Both the position numbers and the translations under genes were made by a program. From Blautia sp. An81 (GTDB taxonomy: Bacteria > Bacillota > Clostridia > Lachnospirales > Lachnospiraceae), in the NCBI RefSeq assembly GCF_002161285.1, contig NZ_NFHH01000026.1:1-54256 (forward strand): DNA of 54,256 nt, written 5' to 3'. Below are positions 27,659 through 36,540 of the stretch, in pieces. Position 1 is the stretch's first letter, and each line of letters starts with the position of its first letter. The notes below the pieces were generated by a model. The model saw only the letters and a program-made list of their open reading frames with translations, made no database searches and had not been told where the DNA came from.

Positions 27659-28702
27659 ATGACAGAGATACACAAACACGGAGGAGACATTTACCGGCAT
27701 AAAAATGTTCTGGATTTTTCTTCTAACTGTAATCCTTACGGAACTCCCGATGGGGTAAAAAAAGCAGGTGCGGCGGCTATGGCCCAGGTCTGCCACTATC
27801 CGGATGTGGAGTGTGAAGAACTGCGCCGGGCCCTGGAAAAGGCAGAAGGAGTTCCTATGGAATCCATTATCTGCGGAAACGGAGCTGCGGATCTGATCTT
27901 TGGTCTGGTATTGGCAGTAAAACCCAGGAAAGCGCTCCTTCCTGCGCCCACTTTTGCAGAATATGAACAGGCTTTGAATGCCTGGGGATGCCAGACGGAA
28001 TACTGTTTTCTTTCAGAAGAGAAGGGGTTTTGCCCTGGAGAGGAGTTTTTAGATGCCATCCGGCAGGATATGGATATGGTGTTTTTCTGCAATCCAAACA
28101 ACCCTACCGGAGTGGCGGCAGAACCGGAGTATCTGAAAAGACTGGCAGAGCGATGCCGGCAGATGGGTGCCTTCCTGGTGCTGGACGAATGCTTTGAAGA
28201 CTTTCTGGAGGAGCCGGAGAAATACTCCATGAAAGGATATCTGAAAGCATATCCCCGGATGTTTCTGCTGAAGGCATTTACAAAGAAATACGCCATGGCG
28301 GGAATCCGGCTGGGCTATGGCTTCTGCGGAAGCTCTGAGACTTTGGAACAGATGAAAGCTGTCATGCAGCCCTGGAATGTTTCTGTAGTTGCCCAGGAAG
28401 CAGGGATCGCCGCTCTGAAAGAAGAGACATATGTGAAAGAGTCTATGGCAAAAATCCGAAAGGAGAGGGAAAAACTTCTGGAGGGTATGGGGAAACAGGG
28501 ATTTTTCACATTTGCCTCAGAGGCGAATTATATCTTTTTTAAAGGCCCTTGGAATCTTCAGGAAAAGTGCCTGGACAAAGGAATCTATATCCGGGACTGC
28601 AGCAATTACCGGGGACTGAAAAAAGGCTATTACCGGGTGGCTGTCCGGACAAAAGAGGAGAACCAGAAGCTTTTGGAAGTTCTGGACCAAATTATAAAAT
28701 AG
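27659..28702 (+). CDS. cobD: L-threonine-O-3-phosphate decarboxylase CobD
   Basis: A 347-residue PLP enzyme of the histidinol-phosphate aminotransferase type. The N-terminus [22 protein letters not shown] is that of CobD rather than HisC. NPNNPTG marks the cofactor pocket, VLDECFEDF carries the cofactor aspartate, and [18 protein letters not shown] holds the Schiff-base lysine. It decarboxylates threonine phosphate to 1-amino-2-propanol phosphate, the CbiB substrate. Its position between cbiB and cbiP supports the assignment. Confidence 0.92.
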
Positions 28703-28721
28703 ACAAAAAGAGGGAAGGATT

Positions 28722-30230
28722 ATGGCAAAAGCAATTATGATACAGGGGACTATGTCCAATGCAGGAAAAAGCCTGCTGGCGGCAGGTCTTTGCAGGATTT
28801 TTAAACAGGACGGATATAAGGTAGCCCCTTTTAAATCTCAGAATATGGCTCTGAATTCTTTTATTACCCAGGAGGGACTGGAAATGGGAAGAGCCCAGGT
28901 CATGCAGGCAGAGGCTGCAGGGATCAGTCCCTCCGTGCTGATGAATCCCATACTGCTGAAACCTACCAATGATGTGGGGAGCCAGGTGATCGTAAACGGA
29001 GAGGTCCTGGGGACTATGAGCGCCAGGGACTATTTTAAGTATAAAAAGCAGCTTGTGCCAAAAGTTATGGAAGCTTATGAAAAACTGGCTGAAGAATATG
29101 ATATCATTGTCATAGAAGGAGCGGGAAGTCCTGCAGAGATCAATCTGAAGGAAGAGGATATCGTCAATATGGGTATGGCCAAAATGGCAAAGGCGCCGGT
29201 GCTCCTGGTGGGAGATATTGACCGTGGAGGGGTTTTCGCCCAGCTGATGGGAACCATTATGCTTCTGGAACCGGAAGAGCAGAAGATGGTAAAGGGCATG
29301 ATCATTAACAAATTCCGTGGCGATAAGACCATACTGGATCCCGGCGTAGAAATGCTGGAAGAGAGGACCAATATTCCAGTTGTGGGAGTGGCCCCCTATA
29401 TGGAGCTGGAAGTAGAAGATGAGGACAGTCTGACAGAACGGTTCTCCGGAAACCAGGAAGTAGGCCTTATCGATATCGCCGTGATCCGGGTGCCAAGAAT
29501 CTCCAATTTTACAGATTTCAATGCTCTGGAGGTGATTCCGGGAGTTTCTCTCCGGTATGTGCGCCATGTCCAGGAGCTGAAAAATCCAGATATGATCATT
29601 CTTCCTGGAACCAAGAATACCATGGAAGACCTGCTGTGGATGCGGCAGAACGGCCTGGAGGCAGCTGTGCTGAAGAAAGCTGCTGAGGGAAAGATCATTT
29701 TCGGCGTATGCGGAGGTTACCAGATGCTGGGAGAGACTTTGTCAGACCCGGAGCACGTAGAGGCCGGAGGAGAGATCAAAGGCATGGGACTTCTGCCTAT
29801 GGATACCGTGTTCAGAGAAGGGAAGACCAGAACCCGTGTGGAAGGAACTTTTGGCCAGGTACAGGGACCTCTCCATACATTGACAGGAGTGAATCTGGAA
29901 GGCTATGAAATCCATATGGGAGAGACAAAGCTCCATGAGAACGTTGAGAGTTTTACCAGGATCACTGATACGGTAAAGAATGAAACTAAAGCAGACGGAG
30001 CCTTTTATAACAATGTATATGGCTCCTATGTACATGGTATCTTTGACAAGGAAGAAGTGGCCAAGAAAGTAGTAGAAGCCATAGGAGAAATTAAGGGACT
30101 GGATGTTTCTTCTATGACAGGAGTGGACTTCGCAAGTTTTAAAGAAACGCAGTATGACCTGCTGGCTCAGGGCCTCAGGGAACACTTAGATATGAAAAAG
30201 ATCTATCAGATCCTGGAAGAAGGAATCTGA
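28722..30230 (+). CDS. cbiP: Adenosylcobyric acid synthase CbiP (CobQ)
   Basis: A 502-residue glutamine-dependent amidotransferase. The N-terminal part has [19 protein letters not shown] (P-loop), [12 protein letters not shown] and [13 protein letters not shown]. The C-terminal amidotransferase half has [20 protein letters not shown] (catalytic cysteine) and YVHGIFD. It amidates the b, d, e and g side chains of adenosylcobyrinate diamide. Its substrate must first be adenosylated, but no adenosyltransferase gene is visible in the window. Confidence 0.95.
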
Positions 30231-30259
30231 CAGGAGCAGAAAAAACAGGAGATGGCAGT

Positions 30260-30910
30260 ATGAAAGTAGAACTGGAAAATGTAAAACCAAAAGAAATAGA
30301 GACCAGAAGCTTTGAGATCATTACCCAGGAGCTGGGGGATAAGAAGCTGATTCCGGGAACCGAGCTGATCGTAAAGCGCTGTATCCATACCAGCGCAGAT
30401 TTCGATTATGCAGATAATCTCTGCTTCTCAGAAGGGGCAGTGGAAAAAGCCATAGAAGCCATTAAAAAAGGGGCCTGTATCGTGACAGATACGCAGATGG
30501 CAAAAGCCGGGATCAATAAAAAGGCACTGCAGAAATATGGAGGAGAGGTTTACTGTTTTATGTCCGATGAAGATGTGGCCGCTGCTGCAAAAGAACAGGG
30601 ATGTACCAGAGCAACTGCCTGCATCGACAAAGCTGCGGCCCTTGGAAAGCCGGTAATCTTTGCTATCGGAAATGCCCCTACAGCTCTGGTGCGTCTTTAT
30701 GAGCTTATACAGGAGAAAAAAATTTCTCCATATTTGATCATAGGGGTTCCAGTAGGCTTTGTAAATGTGGTACAATCAAAAGAAATGATTATGGATACAG
30801 AGGTTCCCTATATTGTAGCCAGTGGAAGAAAGGGCGGAAGCAATATTGCCGCCTGTATCTGTAACGCATTGCTTTACATGATTGATAATGAGCGAGATTA
30901 CTGGAAGTAA
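30260..30910 (+). CDS. cbiC: Cobalt-precorrin-8 methylmutase CbiC
   Basis: The 216-residue CbiC/CobH carries the catalytic histidine in KRCIHTSADFDY (H43), then IVTDTQMAKAGI, FAIGNAPTALVRL and the closing PYIVASGRKGGSNIAA. It moves the C11 methyl group to C12, forming cobyrinate. It is the last recognisable pathway gene of the operon, 29 nt after cbiP, although its step falls before CbiA. Confidence 0.95.
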   Translation: MKVELENVKPKEIETRSFEIITQELGDKKLIPGTELIVKRCIHTSADFDYADNLCFSEGAVEKAIEAIKKGACIVTDTQMAKAGINKKALQKYGGEVYCFMSDEDVAAAAKEQGCTRATACIDKAAALGKPVIFAIGNAPTALVRLYELIQEKKISPYLIIGVPVGFVNVVQSKEMIMDTEVPYIVASGRKGGSNIAACICNALLYMIDNERDYWK

Positions 30911-30931
30911 AATTGCCGGGAAGGAATTTGT

Positions 30932-32299
30932 ATGAAGTGCGAAAGATGCGGAAAGGAACTTTCTGATATTGACTTATACTGCAGCAGATGCGGTAAGGCC
31001 GTTTTTCCAGAGTACATGGACGAGGAAGATATATGGGCCTATTATAAGTCAGATGAAGAGCTGGAACAAATCTTAAAGGCAGAGAAAGAACAGAATGGGG
31101 CTTCTCAGAAGAATGTTTCGGATGGAGAAACTTCGGAACCAGAAGAAAAAGAGAGAATTTCGGAACAGGAAGATTCTGAAGATGGGGTTTCTGAGATAAA
31201 GAGTGCTAAAGCAGAGGAATCTGAGTCCAAGGCTTTTGAACCAGAGGAGGCTGCGGCGAAGGATTCTGAGACAGAAAATATAGAGCAGGAAAATTCTGAA
31301 AGGGAAAATTCTGCCCTGAGTCCAGAGAATGGACTTTTAGAAGAAGATTTTCAGGCAGAAAACTCCGAAAGGGAGATTTCAGAAGAGGAGGCTTCCCAAG
31401 AGGAAGTTTCTGGGGAAGATTTTCCCTCAGAAGAACTTACGGAAGAAGCAGGCCTGGAAGAACAAAGCTTTGTTCAGGAAATAGAGAGTCCAGAAGATAA
31501 ACTGTCTTCCTCAGATGAAGGAGATCTGCCAGAGGAAACTCTGGAATCTCAAGAGACAACGGAGTTGGAATCAGAGTCTGACTTTGACGAGGAAGAGGAC
31601 GAAGATGAGGATGAAGAAGAGGCAGAAGAGAAAGAACCGCTGACGCCGGAGAAGAAGAGAGCCAGGCGATATACGGCTCTTCTGGCAGGTTTTTTTCTCC
31701 TTCTGTGTCTGGCAGCAGGTATCATTCTGGGAATCCGCAGAATGAATCATCTGGAGACATTGGAAAGAGAGTATACTCAGAAACTGGAAGATAGAACCGA
31801 AACAGAGCCTACGGCTGCTGATACTGGAAATATCCGTCTCCTTTCAGAAGAAGCAGATCTTTCCCAGTATACAAAGCTGCAGCCCGCATCTGCTCAGGCA
31901 GATTCCCAGAAACAGTCAGAGGAAGAAGACTATAGCGGAAGCCGTCTTATAGACGGAGATCCGGCAACTTCCTGGCAGGAAGGAGAAGAAGGCACCGGAG
32001 AGGGAAAAGGAGTTACCCTGACCCTGGACGGCAGTCATCAGATCCGTTATCTTGCTCTCTATCTTGGCAACTGGAAAAGTGACGAGCTGTGGAACTATAA
32101 TGCCCGTCCCCAGTCCCTGGCCGTTCAGGTGGGAGAGGGAGAAGAGGAAGTCCTGGAATTTCCAGATGAGAAAAAAGTCTTTTACCTGGCACTTCAGGAA
32201 CCGGTGGAGACTTCTGAGATAAAGATACGGATACAGTCTTCTTATGAAGGTGAGAGATGGGAGGACAACTGTATCTCAGAGATAGAAGTTTATGAATGA
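30932..32299 (+). CDS. Zinc-ribbon, acidic-linker membrane protein with C-terminal discoidin-like domain
   Basis: A 455-residue protein of unknown function. Residues 2-25 form a zinc ribbon (CERCGKEL and CSRCGKAV). About 50-245 is an extremely acidic, low-complexity region of irregular E-N-S-E / S-E-E repeats. A single membrane helix (about 250-272, TALLAGFFLLLCLAAGIILGI) follows a basic KKRARR stretch. The C-terminal 130 residues (SRLIDGDPATSWQEG, ALYLGNW, EIKIRIQSSY) resemble the NADase-type glycan-binding or F5/8 discoidin fold. The expected topology is a cytoplasmic ribbon and acidic arm with an extracytoplasmic ligand-binding head. It begins 21 nt after cbiC, so it is probably co-transcribed with the cobalamin genes. 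Confidence 0.75.
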   Translation: MKCERCGKELSDIDLYCSRCGKAVFPEYMDEEDIWAYYKSDEELEQILKAEKEQNGASQKNVSDGETSEPEEKERISEQEDSEDGVSEIKSAKAEESESKAFEPEEAAAKDSETENIEQENSERENSALSPENGLLEEDFQAENSEREISEEEASQEEVSGEDFPSEELTEEAGLEEQSFVQEIESPEDKLSSSDEGDLPEETLESQETTELESESDFDEEEDEDEDEEEAEEKEPLTPEKKRARRYTALLAGFFLLLCLAAGIILGIRRMNHLETLEREYTQKLEDRTETEPTAADTGNIRLLSEEADLSQYTKLQPASAQADSQKQSEEEDYSGSRLIDGDPATSWQEGEEGTGEGKGVTLTLDGSHQIRYLALYLGNWKSDELWNYNARPQSLAVQVGEGEEEVLEFPDEKKVFYLALQEPVETSEIKIRIQSSYEGERWEDNCISEIEVYE

Positions 32300-32325
32300 T
32301 GCCCATTTTAAGGAATTGCTGTATA

Positions 32326-32398
32326 AAGAGCTGTCGCATGAAACCTATGGAGAATATTTATACCTGTGTTTTTATGCGGCAGCTCTTGGTATTTTTCT
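32326..32398 (+). terminator. Terminator closing the cobalamin operon, sharing sequence with a dispersed repeat
   Basis: AAGAGCTGTCGCAT (32326-32339) pairs with ATGCGGCAGCTCTT (32374-32387), followed by GGTATTTTTC. Between the arms lies GAGAATATTTATAC, which together with GAGCTGTCGCAT is repeated at 54138-54173. Confidence 0.75.
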
Positions 32399-32400
32399 GT

Positions 32401-32650
32401 GAACGGTTATCATGGAAAATACTTGTATTATAACCGTAGCTTTTAGGTCTCTAGTACGGTTGTGATATAAGAAATTGGTTTTAAGCCGTAGTTTTATGGT
32501 CTACAGTACGGTTATATAAGAAAAACCAGGTGTGCAACCGTAATAAACTGGCTAAAGGAACGGTTGTATAAGAGAATCCAGATTATGAAACCGTAATTGT
32601 ATACGAAAAAGGACGGTTACATCATCGGAAATGTATTTTGGACCGTTTTT
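32401..32650. repeat. Tandem array of 52-53 bp units with paired inverted hexamers
   Basis: ACGGTT occurs at 32403, 32456, 32508, 32560 and 32613, spaced 53, 52, 52 and 53. Its inverse AACCGT (AGCCGT in the second unit, GACCGT in the last) occurs at 32432, 32484, 32536, 32589 and 32641, spaced 52, 52, 53 and 52. The rest of each unit is poorly conserved apart from a TATAAGA-like stretch after ACGGTT. No ORF runs through it. It fills the gap between the discoidin-like gene and the GNAT gene. Each AACCGT can pair with the next ACGGTT to give four hairpins with loops of about 16-18 nt. Confidence 0.8.
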
Positions 32651-32687
32651 CCGTTGAAAAATATAGTTTAGCCGAGAGGAGAAGGAA

Positions 32688-33470
32688 ATGACAAATCAGG
32701 AAATAATGAAGACTGCCATGGAGCAGTCTGGAGCAGATTTAAACTGTAAGGCAGAAGATTTTTTAAAAAAGGAACCGGTTGTGGTCAGCGGGGGTCTAGG
32801 ACCAGGAGCCAAGAAATATTATCAGGAGCCGGTTTCTGCCAATTTGGTATCATATGGAAATAATATTGTTGCTTCTGTGAAAGAAGAGTATCGGGAGCTT
32901 ATATGGGAGTATATCCATAGATTTACATTTTACCATTGTTTTGAGACCCCCAATATGCACTGGCTGGAGGACAGACTTAGAAAAGAAGGGCAGAGGGTCT
33001 GCTTTATGGCGGAATATTATCTGCCGGATGTGGAAAAGGTGAAGCCCCTTCCCTGCAGCTGCTCCCTGAAAATTTTACACAGAGAGGACTTTGAGGAGCT
33101 TTACAGACCAGAATGGAGCAATGCTCTGTGCAGGGAAAGGAAACACCTGGATGTCCTTGGAGTAGGGGCATATGACGGCAAAAAGCTGGTTGGACTGGCA
33201 GGGTGCTCTGCTGACTGCGACAAAATGTGGCAGATTGGTGTAGACGTACTGCAAGAGTACCGCAGGGCAGGAATCGCCTCTGCACTGACCAGCAGACTGG
33301 CTGTTGAGATACTGGAGCGGGGCAAGGTGCCTTTTTACTGCTCTGCCTGGTCTAATATCCGCTCTGTGAGAAACGGGATAAAAAGCGGATTTATTCCTGC
33401 CTGGGTGGAGATGACAGTGAAACCGGCCAAGATCGTTCAGGATATGAACGAAATTACTCTGCTGTCTTAA
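32688..33470 (+). CDS. GNAT family N-acetyltransferase
   Basis: The 260-residue protein has an N-terminal region of about 130 residues unlike standard GNAT and a C-terminal acetyl-CoA-binding core. The core is VGVDVLQEYRRAGIASALTSRLAVEIL, in which the R-x-x-G-I/A motif is clear, then PFYCSAWSNIRSVRNGIKSGF. The substrate is unknown. A GGAGAAGG ribosome site lies 5 nt before the ATG. It is the first gene downstream of the 52-bp repeat array, which could act in its leader or promoter. Confidence 0.78.
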   Translation: MTNQEIMKTAMEQSGADLNCKAEDFLKKEPVVVSGGLGPGAKKYYQEPVSANLVSYGNNIVASVKEEYRELIWEYIHRFTFYHCFETPNMHWLEDRLRKEGQRVCFMAEYYLPDVEKVKPLPCSCSLKILHREDFEELYRPEWSNALCRERKHLDVLGVGAYDGKKLVGLAGCSADCDKMWQIGVDVLQEYRRAGIASALTSRLAVEILERGKVPFYCSAWSNIRSVRNGIKSGFIPAWVEMTVKPAKIVQDMNEITLLS

Positions 33471-33527
33471 TGCGTTCCACAACAGACTGGCTGAAAACAG
33501 TTTGTCACATCCTTTATACCAGGATAT

Positions 33528-33947
33528 TTAAAACTTAAATAAATTCAGCCCGATTTCTTCATTGTAAGCCCTGTCCACAGTTCCCTCAATGAGAGTTATG
33601 ACCATTTCACAGGTGGCGCTGACCATAGCCTGGTTCAGATGACCACCGAAGACTTCTCCCTTATCATTTCCTGCGCTCATATGTAAATGGCAGTAAAATT
33701 CACCGTCCATAGTGTTGATAGTTCCGGTAAGAGATACGATTTCGAAACTGCCGCTGAAATGATTGGAATAATATTTTTTCTCGTCAGTTTTAAAAACTCC
33801 TACAGTAAAATCATTGATGGCGCCCAAAGCCTGGATGCTTGCCAGCTTTATATTTTCTTTCAGAGCGATTTCTTTTACCTGTTCCAGGATTTCTTCTCCT
33901 TTATCGATTCTTGCGATCAAAGTGTTTCCAAATTTTCTGTATTCCAT
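33528..33947 (-). CDS. PPC (DUF296) domain DNA-binding-like protein
   Basis: A 139-residue single-domain PPC protein: ASIQALGAINDFTVGVF, FEIVSLTGTI, then HLHMSAGNDKGEVFGGHL, whose histidines form the trimer's metal site in bacterial homologues. In plants the domain accompanies AT-hook proteins; the bacterial role is not established. The ATG at 33947 is preceded by GGGAGG. The minus-strand promoter TTGACA (34003-34008) and TATGAT (33979-33984), 18 bp apart, fits this gene. Confidence 0.85.
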   Translation of the reverse strand: MEYRKFGNTLIARIDKGEEILEQVKEIALKENIKLASIQALGAINDFTVGVFKTDEKKYYSNHFSGSFEIVSLTGTINTMDGEFYCHLHMSAGNDKGEVFGGHLNQAMVSATCEMVITLIEGTVDRAYNEEIGLNLFKF

Positions 33948-33978
33948 AATATAAGTACCTCCCAGATTTATATAGTTA

Positions 33979-34008
33979 ATCATACAGTCTGAGGAAAACG
34001 ATTGTCAA
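33979..34008 (-). promoter_or_regulatory. Sigma-A promoter of the PPC-domain gene
   Basis: On the minus strand, TTGACA and TATGAT have an 18-bp spacer, about 32 nt before the start codon. Confidence 0.65.
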
Positions 34009-34117
34009 GAACTGGATTTCATAGGAAAGAAAGTCCGTATATTTTATGACTTTTATGACAGATTGTGATATGATTTATGAAAATACACTGAGGGTACAGT
34101 ATGTAGAGGGAAATATT

Positions 34118-34720
34118 ATGAACAGATGTAAATGGTGTCTTTGTAATGAGAAAATGATGCGTTACCATGATGAAGAATGGGGCGTCCCTCTGTGGGACGA
34201 TCAAAAACAGTTCGAATTTCTGATGATGGAAGTCATGCAGTGCGGTCTGAACTGGAATATGATGATTCAGAAGCGGGAGATTTTCCGACAGTGTTTTGAG
34301 GAGTTTGACTTTGACAAGGTGGCGGAGTATGGAGAGGAGGATATTGAAAGGATTCTGAATACCGAAGGCATGATCCACTCAAGAAGAAAAATTGAAGCAG
34401 TGATACACAATGCCAGGTGTTTCCAGGAAATCCGTAAAGAATGGGGTTCTTTCAGCAAATATATCTGGAGTTTTACCAAAGGAAAAACTTATCTCTATAC
34501 CGGACATCAGAAAGGAGAGATTCCAGCAAGAAACGGCCTGTCTGACAGAGTCAGCAGTGATCTGAAAAAGCGGGGCATGAAATATATGGGGTCTGTTACG
34601 GTATATTCTCATTTACAGGCCTGCGGGATTATTAATGATCACCTGGATACCTGCTTTCGGTTTCCAGAGCTGATGGAACTGTCAGACGCAGTCAAAAAAA
34701 GAAGAGAGAAAGAGCAGTAA
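34118..34720 (+). CDS. tag: DNA-3-methyladenine glycosylase I (Tag)
   Basis: The 200-residue glycosylase starts MNRCKWCLCNEKMMRYHDEEWGVP, the Tag signature with zinc cysteines and the YHDxEWG motif. QFEFLMMEVMQCGLNW holds the catalytic-pocket glutamate, and the C-terminal HLQACGIINDHLDTCF completes the zinc site. It removes 3-methyladenine from alkylated DNA as the first step of base excision repair. The ATG at 34118 (AGAGGGAAA upstream) is preferred over frames beginning at 34046. Confidence 0.93.
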   Translation: MNRCKWCLCNEKMMRYHDEEWGVPLWDDQKQFEFLMMEVMQCGLNWNMMIQKREIFRQCFEEFDFDKVAEYGEEDIERILNTEGMIHSRRKIEAVIHNARCFQEIRKEWGSFSKYIWSFTKGKTYLYTGHQKGEIPARNGLSDRVSSDLKKRGMKYMGSVTVYSHLQACGIINDHLDTCFRFPELMELSDAVKKRREKEQ

Positions 34721-34779
34721 AGGAAATCTAGGCTCTTACTCAGAGAGTAGAAACGAAAAAGCAGGAAGAGGTGGCAGAG

Positions 34780-35238
34780 ATGGAAATACGAGACATGGAA
34801 AGTAAAGACTACCCGGAAATTGACAGGCTTATGAAGGAACTTCATGAGCTTCATGTAAAAGGCAGGCCGGACCTGTATACAGAGCTGGAACACCCCTATT
34901 CCAGAGAAGAATTTGAAAAGATTGTAAGCAATCCGGGAATTATTGCCATACTTGCTGAAGAAAAAAGTGTGGTAATCGGTCTTTGTATAGGAACTCTACG
35001 GAAGAAAAGCGGTATGGTGGAGATGAAGACCATGTATATAGAGGACCTGATTGTAGACAGAAATTTTCGGGGAAAAGGGATTGCCTCACAGCTTTATGAA
35101 GAAATGGAAGAGAGAGGCAGAAATACCGGGGCAAAACGGCTGGACCTTATGGTATGGGAATTTAACAGCGACGCCAAAAGATTCTATGAGAAACAGGGAA
35201 TGAGGCCTCAGAGATACATTTATGAAAAGGAATTGTAG
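34780..35238 (+). CDS. GNAT family N-acetyltransferase
   Basis: The 152-residue single-domain GNAT has MEIRDMESKDYPEIDRLMKEL at the N-terminus, the strand-4/P-loop region IEDLIVDRNFRGKGIASQLYEEM, and the LMVWEFNSDAKRFYEKQGM motif C-terminally. The substrate is unknown. A GTG at 34771 is possible, but the ATG at 34780 is better spaced from AGGAAGAGG. Beyond its TAG stop the same frame continues open for 90 codons into a membrane-protein-like sequence (see next entry). Confidence 0.85.
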   Translation: MEIRDMESKDYPEIDRLMKELHELHVKGRPDLYTELEHPYSREEFEKIVSNPGIIAILAEEKSVVIGLCIGTLRKKSGMVEMKTMYIEDLIVDRNFRGKGIASQLYEEMEERGRNTGAKRLDLMVWEFNSDAKRFYEKQGMRPQRYIYEKEL

Positions 35239-35244
35239 CAGCGT

Positions 35245-35511
35245 ATAAAAAAAGAACTTCAGAAAGACAAAAGACATGTCAGGTACTTTCTCCTGGGAAT
35301 CGGGATTGGTATTCTGGTTCTGTTTATTGGTGCGATAACAGGAAGAGAAGGGGCAGAAGTCGGAGGGCTTTTTCTTACCGGGATTACGATCCTTGTTTTT
35401 CCTCTTACAACTCCGGAAACTGTAAAATGGCTGGGATATAAACGGGCAAAAGTTGTTGGGAGGATATTGGGAATTCTTGTGGCAGCAGCAGGAGGATTAT
35501 TTCTGATATGA
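35245..35511 (+). pseudogene. Small three-helix membrane protein ORF without a standard start codon
   Basis: The frame directly following the GNAT stop is open for 90 codons (35239-35508) and ends TGA at 35509-35511. It encodes about 88 residues with three hydrophobic stretches (YFLLGIGIGILVLFIGAI, GGLFLTGITILVFPL, VVGRILGILVAAAGG), so it looks like real protein. No ATG, GTG or TTG occurs early enough. ATA at 35245, ahead of AAAAAAGAACTT, is the likely former start, with AGGA about 14 nt upstream. Either the start mutated or a rare ATA start is used. I do not recognise the family. Confidence 0.5.
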
Positions 35512-35533
35512 TGGACTATTTTCAGAAAAACTC

Positions 35534-35564
35534 TTGACTTAGAGTTGACTTCAAGAGCTATGAT
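35534..35564 (+). promoter_or_regulatory. MerR-family type promoter with overlong spacer and central dyad
   Basis: TTGACT (35534-35539) and TATGAT (35559-35564) are 19 bp apart. The spacer holds the dyad CTTAGAGT-TG-ACTTCAAG (35538-35555). This matches the architecture of MerR-activated promoters, especially the NmlR/AdhR type with CTT..AGT/ACT..AAG arms. No MerR gene is in the window. Confidence 0.6.
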
Positions 35565-35649
35565 ACAAATAAATGATCATTCAGATTATACCGAAAGCTT
35601 TCCGGTATATTATGCTGAACCATCAAATACAAGAAAGAGAGGGAAAAAT

Positions 35650-36540
35650 ATGAAGGCAAAGGTTTACTTTACTAGAGAAATTACCCCTGAAAAGGTTGTA
35701 GAGATGTATCAGGCCCTTGGAGTGGAGCTGCCAGGAAAAGTGGCTGTGAAGGTCCATTCTGGAGAAAAGGGAAATCAAAATTTCCTCCGTCCGGAGTTTT
35801 GGCGGCCTATGGTTGAGAAAGTTCAGGGAACGATTGTGGAGTGCAACACTGCTTATGGTGACGCCAGCGGAGGTGTACGGGACCATACAGAGTCTCATCT
35901 GAAACTTTTGTAAGAGCACGGCTGGAATAAATACTTTGATGTAGATCTTATGGATGCCCAGGGACCGGATGTGATCTGGCCCATTCCAAATGGCAAAGTT
36001 CTCAAAGAAAACCACCTGGGTAAAAATATTATGAATTATGATTCTATGCTGGTCCTGGCCCATTTTAAAGGACACCCTATGGGCGGCTACGGCGGAGCTC
36101 TTAAACAGCTTTCTATTGGCTGCGCTTCAAGAGCCGGAAAGGCTCTGATCCATTCTGCCGGCAAGACCAATGACCGTTATGAGACATGGAAACAGCATGC
36201 CAGCAGCGTTGAATTTCCAGAGGCCATGGCTGACGCAGCGGCCAGTGTAGTGGAGCATTTTAAAGGCAGGACTGCTTTTATCAATGTAATGAAAAACCTT
36301 TCTGTGGACTGTGACTGCTGTGCAGTAGAGGAGGATCCCTGTATGAAAGATATCGGTATTCTGGCCTCCACAGATCCGGTTGCCATTGACCAGGCTTGTA
36401 TGGATCTGGTAATTCATTCCGATGATCCCGGCAGGGACCACTTTATGGAACGTGTGAACAGCCGCAACGGAATCCATACCATTGAAGCTGCTGAGGATCT
36501 GGGAATCGGAACCAGGGAATATGAACTTATAGAACTTTAA
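35650..36540 (+). pseudogene. DUF362 (Fe-S) family protein interrupted by an in-frame ochre stop
   Basis: The first part (35650-35913) gives MKAKVYFTREITPEK... and GKVAVKVHSGEKGNQNFLRP, the DUF362 N-terminus, and stops at TAA (35911-35913) after SHLKLL. The same frame then continues without a break as EHGWNKYFDVDLMDAQGPD and on through HFKGHPMGGYGGALKQLSIG and DCCAVEEDPCMKDIG to 36540. One substitution restores a 296-residue protein. Only a stop at that codon separates the parts; the C-terminal part has a later in-frame ATG at 35950 but no good ribosome site. A functional split is unlikely but not excluded. Confidence 0.8.

Follow-up and report, generated by a model that had tools for sequence, protein, structure and literature searches.

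What is the short, evenly spaced array that lies between two genes of Blautia sp. An81, in which the hexamers ACGGTT and AACCGT alternate while the sequence between them varies, and what holds its spacing? The locus was analysed in a window of 54,256 nucleotides (contig NZ_NFHH01000026.1, positions 1 to 54,256), and position numbers below refer to this window. The first-pass annotation had described five inverted-hexamer units with a period of 52-53 bp, and this description was borne out by the site positions (units ACGGTT-N22/23-AACCGT) and by shuffling. Left (ACGGTT) sites start at 32403, 32456, 32508, 32560 and 32613 (steps of 53, 52, 52 and 53 bp) and right (AACCGT-class) sites at 32432, 32484, 32536, 32589 and 32641 (steps of 52, 52, 53 and 52 bp), with units separated by 18 bp and two of the right sites off by one base (AGCCGT at 32484 in unit 2, a G-U variant, and GACCGT at 32641). 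The pattern ACGGTTR-N18-30-AACCGT was matched 5 times in the window over both strands, a number reached by none of 100 dinucleotide shuffles (mean 0.01). The array was not reported by Tandem Repeats Finder, because the sequence between the sites has diverged.

The array had been placed before a GNAT gene and after a cobalamin operon; the GNAT gene does lie downstream, whereas the genes at 28722-30910, presumably cobalamin genes by their sequence, are not adjacent but one gene further upstream (Table 1). In the intervening gene an acidic low-complexity stretch with GAA/GAG-type short tandem repeats (31586-31636) sits between the zinc ribbon and the discoid domain. The terminator-like hairpin that follows this gene was not listed by a terminator scan with a loop limit of 8, and the promoter/terminator scan returned a promoter-like match ending at 32667, ahead of the GNAT gene. 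At this place the array is most likely a passenger, with a terminator on one side and the promoter of the next gene on the other.

Table 1. Features at the array locus (positions in the window) and groups of loci referred to in the text.
Feature	Position	Strand	Basis or loci
Upstream gene, zinc ribbon and NADase-type discoid domain	30932..32299	+	
Terminator-like long hairpin with T-rich tail, between upstream gene and array	32325..32399	+	sequence and stem in fold
Whole array, five inverted-hexamer units at 52-53 bp	32403..32646	.	
Unit 1, ACGGTT-N23-AACCGT	32403..32437	.	
Unit 2, right site AGCCGT	32456..32489	.	
Unit 3, ACGGTT-N22-AACCGT	32508..32541	.	
Unit 4, ACGGTT-N23-AACCGT	32560..32594	.	
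Unit 5, right site GACCGT	32613..32646	.	
Downstream gene, GNAT acetyltransferase	32688..33470	+	
Gene beside ACGGTT array, uninterrupted			L016, L057, L060, L071, L079, L108, L115, L151
Gene beside ACGGTT array, broken			L068, L135
Second paralog or broken copy with other-motif upstream array			L248, L294, L295, L296, L300, L304
Dispersed element of ~640 bp			L049, L050, L056, L063, L065, L077, L083, L096, L106, L110, L112, L119, L122, L132, L139, L145, L148, L154, L155

The array is not unique. When the strain's own genome (4.3 Mb, 82 contigs) was searched for ACGGTT-N20-32-AACCGT, 38 forward matches were obtained, against 4 for the reversed control, at 15 places; 13 of these, the array of the window included, are arrays with 2-6 recognisable units, and the other two (L009 and L013) are single units. 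The earlier proposal of conserved hexamers and spacing around a drifting interior was also supported. With the register taken from the right cores alone (30 intervals), the left hexamer retained a mean of 5.77 of its 6 bases, against 2.38 at control offsets, and with the register taken from the left cores alone (41 intervals) the right hexamer retained 5.56 of 6 (control 2.40), the best of four offsets being used for site and control alike and the arrays having been found by exact matches to the same hexamers. Unit interiors compared across different arrays of this genome were on average 38% identical. Eleven of the 13 lie clear of every called frame of at least 70 aa, the exceptions being L005 (a frame of 83 aa) and L008 (270 aa). 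Gene context was scored over 132 loci from this and named genomes, in which 109 arrays were placed among mechanically called frames, some of them spurious. With 28 arrays at locus edges and 23 of the 109 overlapping a called frame of at least 90 aa left unclassed, the 58 arrays with both flanks called lay in 20 convergent, 33 same-direction and 5 divergent gaps, compared with 49, 147 and 60 of 256 other gaps. An unrelated dispersed repeat of 135 nt was also seen at two of the loci, in inverted orientation and with 87% identity (L011:2640-2770 and L014:4378-4511).

A chain of RNA hairpins in a transcript had been offered as one explanation of such a layout, and it gained no support here; we regard it as scarcely credible. 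The array stretch, folded as RNA together with the terminator-like hairpin that precedes it, does beat shuffles (z -5.65). In arrays flanked by same-direction genes, transitions inside the hexamers kept the wobble pair 28 times and broke it 17 times, a weak tilt towards RNA that is not decisive. Against this, a search of Rfam with positions 28000-36000 gave two chance-level matches, neither at the array, and Watson-Crick symmetry next to the hexamers was above expectation whereas G-U pairs were not clearly so. Pair symmetry was about equal for both possible hairpins and so favours neither. Among the most frequent single changes are T5 to A (33) and A2 to T (32), either of which disrupts pairing if there is no matching change in the partner site, and the whole-turn quantization of periods described below has no reason in RNA. 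A CRISPR array, which it resembles in its regularity and in the variable sequence between kept elements, was rejected, as only short repeats were found and the flanking genes are not cas; unlike in CRISPR, only 6-bp inverted sites are kept and the interior is often common to several units.

The gene linked to these arrays came from a reading that was itself abandoned: a composite element, considered for loci with two arrays (L108, L138 and L076), was dropped, and the trail led to the gene beside the array of L108 (Mediterraneibacter). Its product is a protein of ~264 aa, and a homologous, uninterrupted gene for a PD-(D/E)XK-like protein lies in the Blautia genome itself at L016, with an array just upstream. 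Neither Pfam (under E 0.05) nor NCBIfam gave a match for the L108 protein; in PADLOC the C-terminal part of both proteins matches the candidate defence protein PDC-S68 (E 4e-25). They share this C-terminal PD-(D/E)XK domain match with PDC-S68 and with AAA ATPase and RecQ fusions, and differ from all of these in being free-standing, with an N-terminal part of their own and an upstream array. In an alignment of 84 rows S158, K159, E161, Y177, E178, D192, F193, E207, H208, G210, Y217 and E244 are invariant or nearly so; the PD-(D/E)XK-type acidic positions E161, D192 and E207, together with H208, are kept in all or nearly all rows. We take these four to correspond to the catalytic residues of the superfamily, and conservation of the acidic and histidine residues suggests that catalysis has been kept. 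As to a restriction-endonuclease-like fold, the structure model reached pLDDT 76 and pTM 0.49 (other four models 46-53), and a Foldseek search with this modest model gave a best E of 0.0093 and none at 0.001. The weak top rows were nucleases or complexes with one (Bax1, DrdV, R2, MunI), followed by prefoldin and others, with Vsr at rank 43. Solved structures searched by sequence returned chance-level protoglobin matches only.

Homologs of the nuclease-like gene were found in at least 100 of 299 genomes sampled across the family, with up to eight per genome among the matches listed. Across the class, 45 of 391 genomes had a homolog, some of them matching in the C-terminal domain only. A plasmid search gave four records, confined to the C-terminal part, a phage search gave one record with 31% identity, and a search of viral contigs for a relative of the nuclease found none. 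The two-unit pattern of the ACGGTT array was present in 3 of the 299 family genomes (0 of 299 for the reversed control) and in 9 of 20 genomes of the genus, while a scan of named genome contigs gave at least 117 stretches, mostly from Lachnospiraceae among the matches listed, with many MAGs from chicken gut (Blautia, Eisenbergiella, Mediterraneibacter, Pullilachnospira and others). In unrelated bacteria, Actinobacillus and Spirulina for example, there were single pattern matches that form no array, and viral contigs gave two single matches. Draft-genome contigs often begin or end within arrays (for example at L071, L098 and L246), so short-read assemblies probably undercount them.

Presence of gene and array was correlated within the genus: 8 of 20 genomes have both the array and a nuclease paralog, 10 have neither and 2 have one only (G314, with array matches and no gene, and G308, with a gene fragment and no array). 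At the level of single loci, the gene adjoins the ACGGTT array in 10 of 132 cases (Table 1). An uninterrupted copy more than 90% identical to the gene of the Blautia genome was found, within the genus, in G304 only; G028 and G307 have the closest copy in pieces, G316 has part of it, and only a more distant paralog, with 64-69% identity, is seen in G300, G313 and G315. Several genomes without an intact closest gene still keep 18-35 array matches, and an intact closest nuclease is therefore not needed for arrays to persist. The array in the window is best read as an orphan, one of the dispersed copies of a phased repeat that is linked to a nuclease; the genome-wide family and its linked gene lay outside the window and were thus invisible to the first-pass annotation.

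The more distant paralog has an upstream array of another motif, about CTACRGC...GCCKGTAG by eye, and the broken gene copy of the Blautia genome (L304) has an upstream array with yet another. Across the family, 80 nuclease regions were picked by hand among the matches listed, by completeness and flank and before arrays were inspected, the first 20 favouring closer homologs; L337 was dropped for having no gene match, leaving 79 loci, some with a short upstream stretch at contig ends (for example L257 and L264). With a score that leaves out homopolymer words, inverted-site arrays scoring at least 5 were found upstream of 24 of 40 homologs, compared with 2 of 40 downstream, where the sequence seen averaged 478 bp, and 3 of 817 control windows. 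At a score of at least 8 the counts were 17 of 40 upstream and 0 of 817 controls. A first array score (19 of 40 beyond all 60 shuffles) was set aside, as it was confused by homopolymer words. Over the whole set, a tandem array precedes 59 of the 79 homologous genes, mostly in other genera, and 20 of 79 have no clear upstream period.

The upstream sites, where they are clear, differ between homologs (CCGACT, TACGTA, GGTCAC, ACAGCG, GACGTA, GATGAC and others). Dispersal was matched to the nuclease for two hexamers besides ACGGTT, by searching 19 genomes: CCGACT arrays occurred in G221 and G200 only and TACGTA arrays in G297, G026 and G041 only, with 0 matches for the reversed controls of both searches, and in every genome with scattered CCGACT or TACGTA arrays the matching site stands upstream of the resident nuclease gene. 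The nuclease array of G007 carries TACGTA at other spacings and gave no match to the spaced TACGTA pattern.

The period of the array had been read as placing all sites on the same face of the DNA, and this idea is supported and proves more general, since periods lie at whole helical turns across versions of the array with other hexamers. With the lag limited to 40-98 bp, since without this limit some top lags were double periods (~106), the tandem periods upstream of the 59 genes fell at 49-54 (28 genes), 61-64 (16), 68-75 (13) and 84-85 bp (2). A second set, which takes in genes from four other families of the class, had a period in 16 of 19 cases, at 52-54, 61-65, 68, 73 and 83-84 bp. These periods cluster at 5, 6, 7 and 8 helical turns, with a phase concentration at ~10.5 bp of R 0.79 for the 59 periods, and a few lie off the ladder (49, 68, 70 and 71). 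Among proteins with less than 45% identity R was 0.71, and 26 of 30 periods lay no more than 2 bp from a whole turn, where periods uniform from 49 to 85 would give 43%; none of 20,000 uniform draws was as strong. In the second set 13 of 14 periods were near a whole turn (p 0.0001). This count excludes L366 (period 53) and L371 (off the ladder with period 68), two loci whose genes are already in the first set and are counted there. Lags in control windows with repeated 7-mers (43 of 710) were scattered.

The period class is partly inherited, since it changes at least 32 times on the nuclease tree, below the 42.8 changes of shuffled labels, and the 59 periods are not independent, because the classes are clustered on the tree. 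The tree has 84 rows (76 loci and 8 ACGGTT-family proteins assigned label 53, with three loci omitted for a length below 200 aa or a stop) and the quantization test 65 (57 loci with a period and the same 8 proteins). By well-supported branches the five-turn label changes at least 8 times, in a tree whose bootstrap had not settled. Near neighbours on it differ by one step (73 vs 62 and 74 vs 84, for example), with exceptions at L287 (85) and L329 (49). Gaps were measured from start to start in 35 arrays whose inverted 6-mer is clear: one is constant at 27-35 bp, and the other is stepped, 19-26 bp with five turns, 32-36 with six, 36-45 with seven and 53 with eight. The ACGGTT family itself has gaps between units of 22-23 or 32-33 bp, the latter mostly from one repeated Eisenbergiella layout. 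Periods at 5, 6, 7 and 8 turns across diverged versions are a rare natural record of selection on the face of DNA.

Whole-turn spacing is typical of cooperative binding, and together with the position of arrays upstream rather than downstream of the nuclease gene it would fit operator arrays, whose sites regulate the nuclease gene and whose copies regulate other genes or act as decoys, being spread by ordinary recombination and not mobilised by the nuclease. We hold this to be unlikely, as scattered ACGGTT arrays are mostly not at promoters (5 of 58 in divergent gaps, against 60 of 256 other gaps), and as the array of L012 fills a new place in one species, being present in the Blautia genome with an empty site in 7 of 7 relatives examined. 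Same-face phasing and a position at gene ends could likewise point to a host function in chromosome structure or transcription, in which gene-end arrays terminate transcripts or are bound by a protein of the nucleoid or of DNA topology, the nuclease being one of their users; BIME-2 repeats of enterobacteria are reported to bind gyrase (PMC2817692). This we judge very improbable, since the sites differ between genomes together with the nuclease and half of the genus genomes have neither array nor gene.

At the site orthologous to that of the window, G304, G028, G307, G315 and G300 have an array of different length and unit types, partly decayed in G315; in G313 there is a single decayed unit, and in G316 ~6 kb of other genes, with no array seen in the parts inspected. 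This stretch of G316 (L217, G316:C170:13850-20800) includes genes that we take to encode a LysR-like regulator and a transporter. In several relatives (L211, L212, L213, L214 and L215) the orthologous array is preceded by other long intergenic sequence in which words like GCCGGCAA and TGCTTGCACGAGC are repeated, and the units of G304 and G028 read ACGGTAGAAAAT and resemble a hybrid of two array types. The array of the window, that of L012 and that of L010 (reversed) are 70-74% alike across 161-209 nt, with end units in the same order and a likeness that runs some tens of bases past them; unit 5 and ~18 nt beyond it recur in the L012 array and, reversed, in L010. These shared ordered end units and flanks indicate that array stretches have been copied between places.

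Unit number at shared sites differs by whole units and in register (3/7 at L016, 5/3 at L010 and 5/3/2 at L014). The first-pass annotation had weighed a recent slippage product without conserved spacing as the case against its reading; unit number is indeed not conserved, being gained and lost in register, and spacing is nonetheless conserved. In-register change between near species and the near-identical tandems seen in some arrays are what a neutral minisatellite grown by slippage, with no function, would also give. Such an origin is highly improbable for arrays that keep their hexamers while their interiors fall so far in identity, that are linked to one gene family and that have whole-turn periods. 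Growth by units in register is also what homologous recombination alone would do.

A mobile element of the MITE type may account for part of the copies. In Eisenbergiella-type genomes one fixed array layout recurs at many places within a dispersed element of ~640 bp (Table 1), which like MITE-type elements has terminal inverted repeats; among 19 aligned copies the left end, GTTACTTTT, is exact in 6 and close to this in others, and the inverse of this sequence stands at the right end. Judged by eye, the copy at L148 has an 8-bp flanking duplication and those at L083, L110 and L112 have no clear one. The MITE reading gained no support in the window's genus, where the ends of this element, searched with at most 1 mismatch, are absent from all 20 genomes; for the arrays of this genus no target-site duplication or exact border was found. 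This element is a secondary vehicle and not what defines the array.

We consider it likely that the array family is a nuclease-linked repeat, bound on one DNA face and probably spread by its cognate nuclease. The gene of a free-standing PD-(D/E)XK-like protein has an array just upstream, copies of the array sit at other, mostly intergenic places of the same genome, and different nuclease lineages have different sites. Pairing, dispersal and phasing can be read from the sequences themselves, and binding, cutting and mobilisation are inferred. The nuclease would bind the hexamers, probably with one dimer for each inverted pair of sites ~30 bp apart, and neighbouring dimers would stand on the same DNA face across a linker of ~22, 33, 43 or 53 bp; on this model, a dimer on a ~30-bp pair and linkers of whole turns would explain why one gap is constant, the other is stepped and the interior is free. 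If arrays are nicked or cut, repair from another array could add units in register, and host repair of nicked or cut arrays may seed copies at new places, as proposed for RAYT with REP/BIME. The nuclease gene may in addition be regulated by the array that precedes it.

RAYT with REP/BIME is the nearest described system. According to PMC2817692, REP/BIME extragenic repeats have alternating orientation and regular spacing and are scattered and tied to one DNA-processing enzyme gene, and the presence of the RAYT gene and of REP repeats is correlated, with repeats beside the gene. The arrays described here are likewise regularly spaced extragenic repeats in alternating orientation, scattered and tied to one gene with correlated presence. 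Membership of that system was rejected, as the enzyme, the site and the one-sided placement differ. The linked gene is PD-(D/E)XK-like and not an IS200/IS605-like Y1 tyrosine transposase, and whereas the RAYT gene is flanked on both sides by inverted repeats, the arrays here lie upstream (24/40) and seldom downstream (2/40). Unlike the REP, a 20-40 bp palindrome with a GTAG or CGTC type end according to PMC3733652, the site is a 6-8 bp inverted core with a free interior, symmetry in the units being restricted to the hexamer and about two bases either side, and unlike in REP/BIME the array periods are quantized at helical turns. The first-pass annotation knew of no described element of this form, and in the open-access PMC literature none turned up, nor anything joining such a nuclease gene to such arrays; a search for the two hexamer strings found unrelated papers only.

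A broader reading, to which we would give an even chance, is that these genes and arrays form an undescribed single-gene selfish system in Clostridia, in which a nuclease writes, expands and reads phased arrays of its own short site, its specificity having diversified into lineage-specific codes and its spacing jumping by one DNA turn, an independent reinvention of the REP/RAYT way of life with another enzyme. The many nuclease-site pairs are a ready data set on how a nuclease family changes its sequence specificity. If the reading is true, it would account for repeats whose two-unit matches number up to ~70 in some genomes, and common gut bacteria would provide a second case, unrelated to the first, in which an enzyme is paired with dispersed intergenic repeats.
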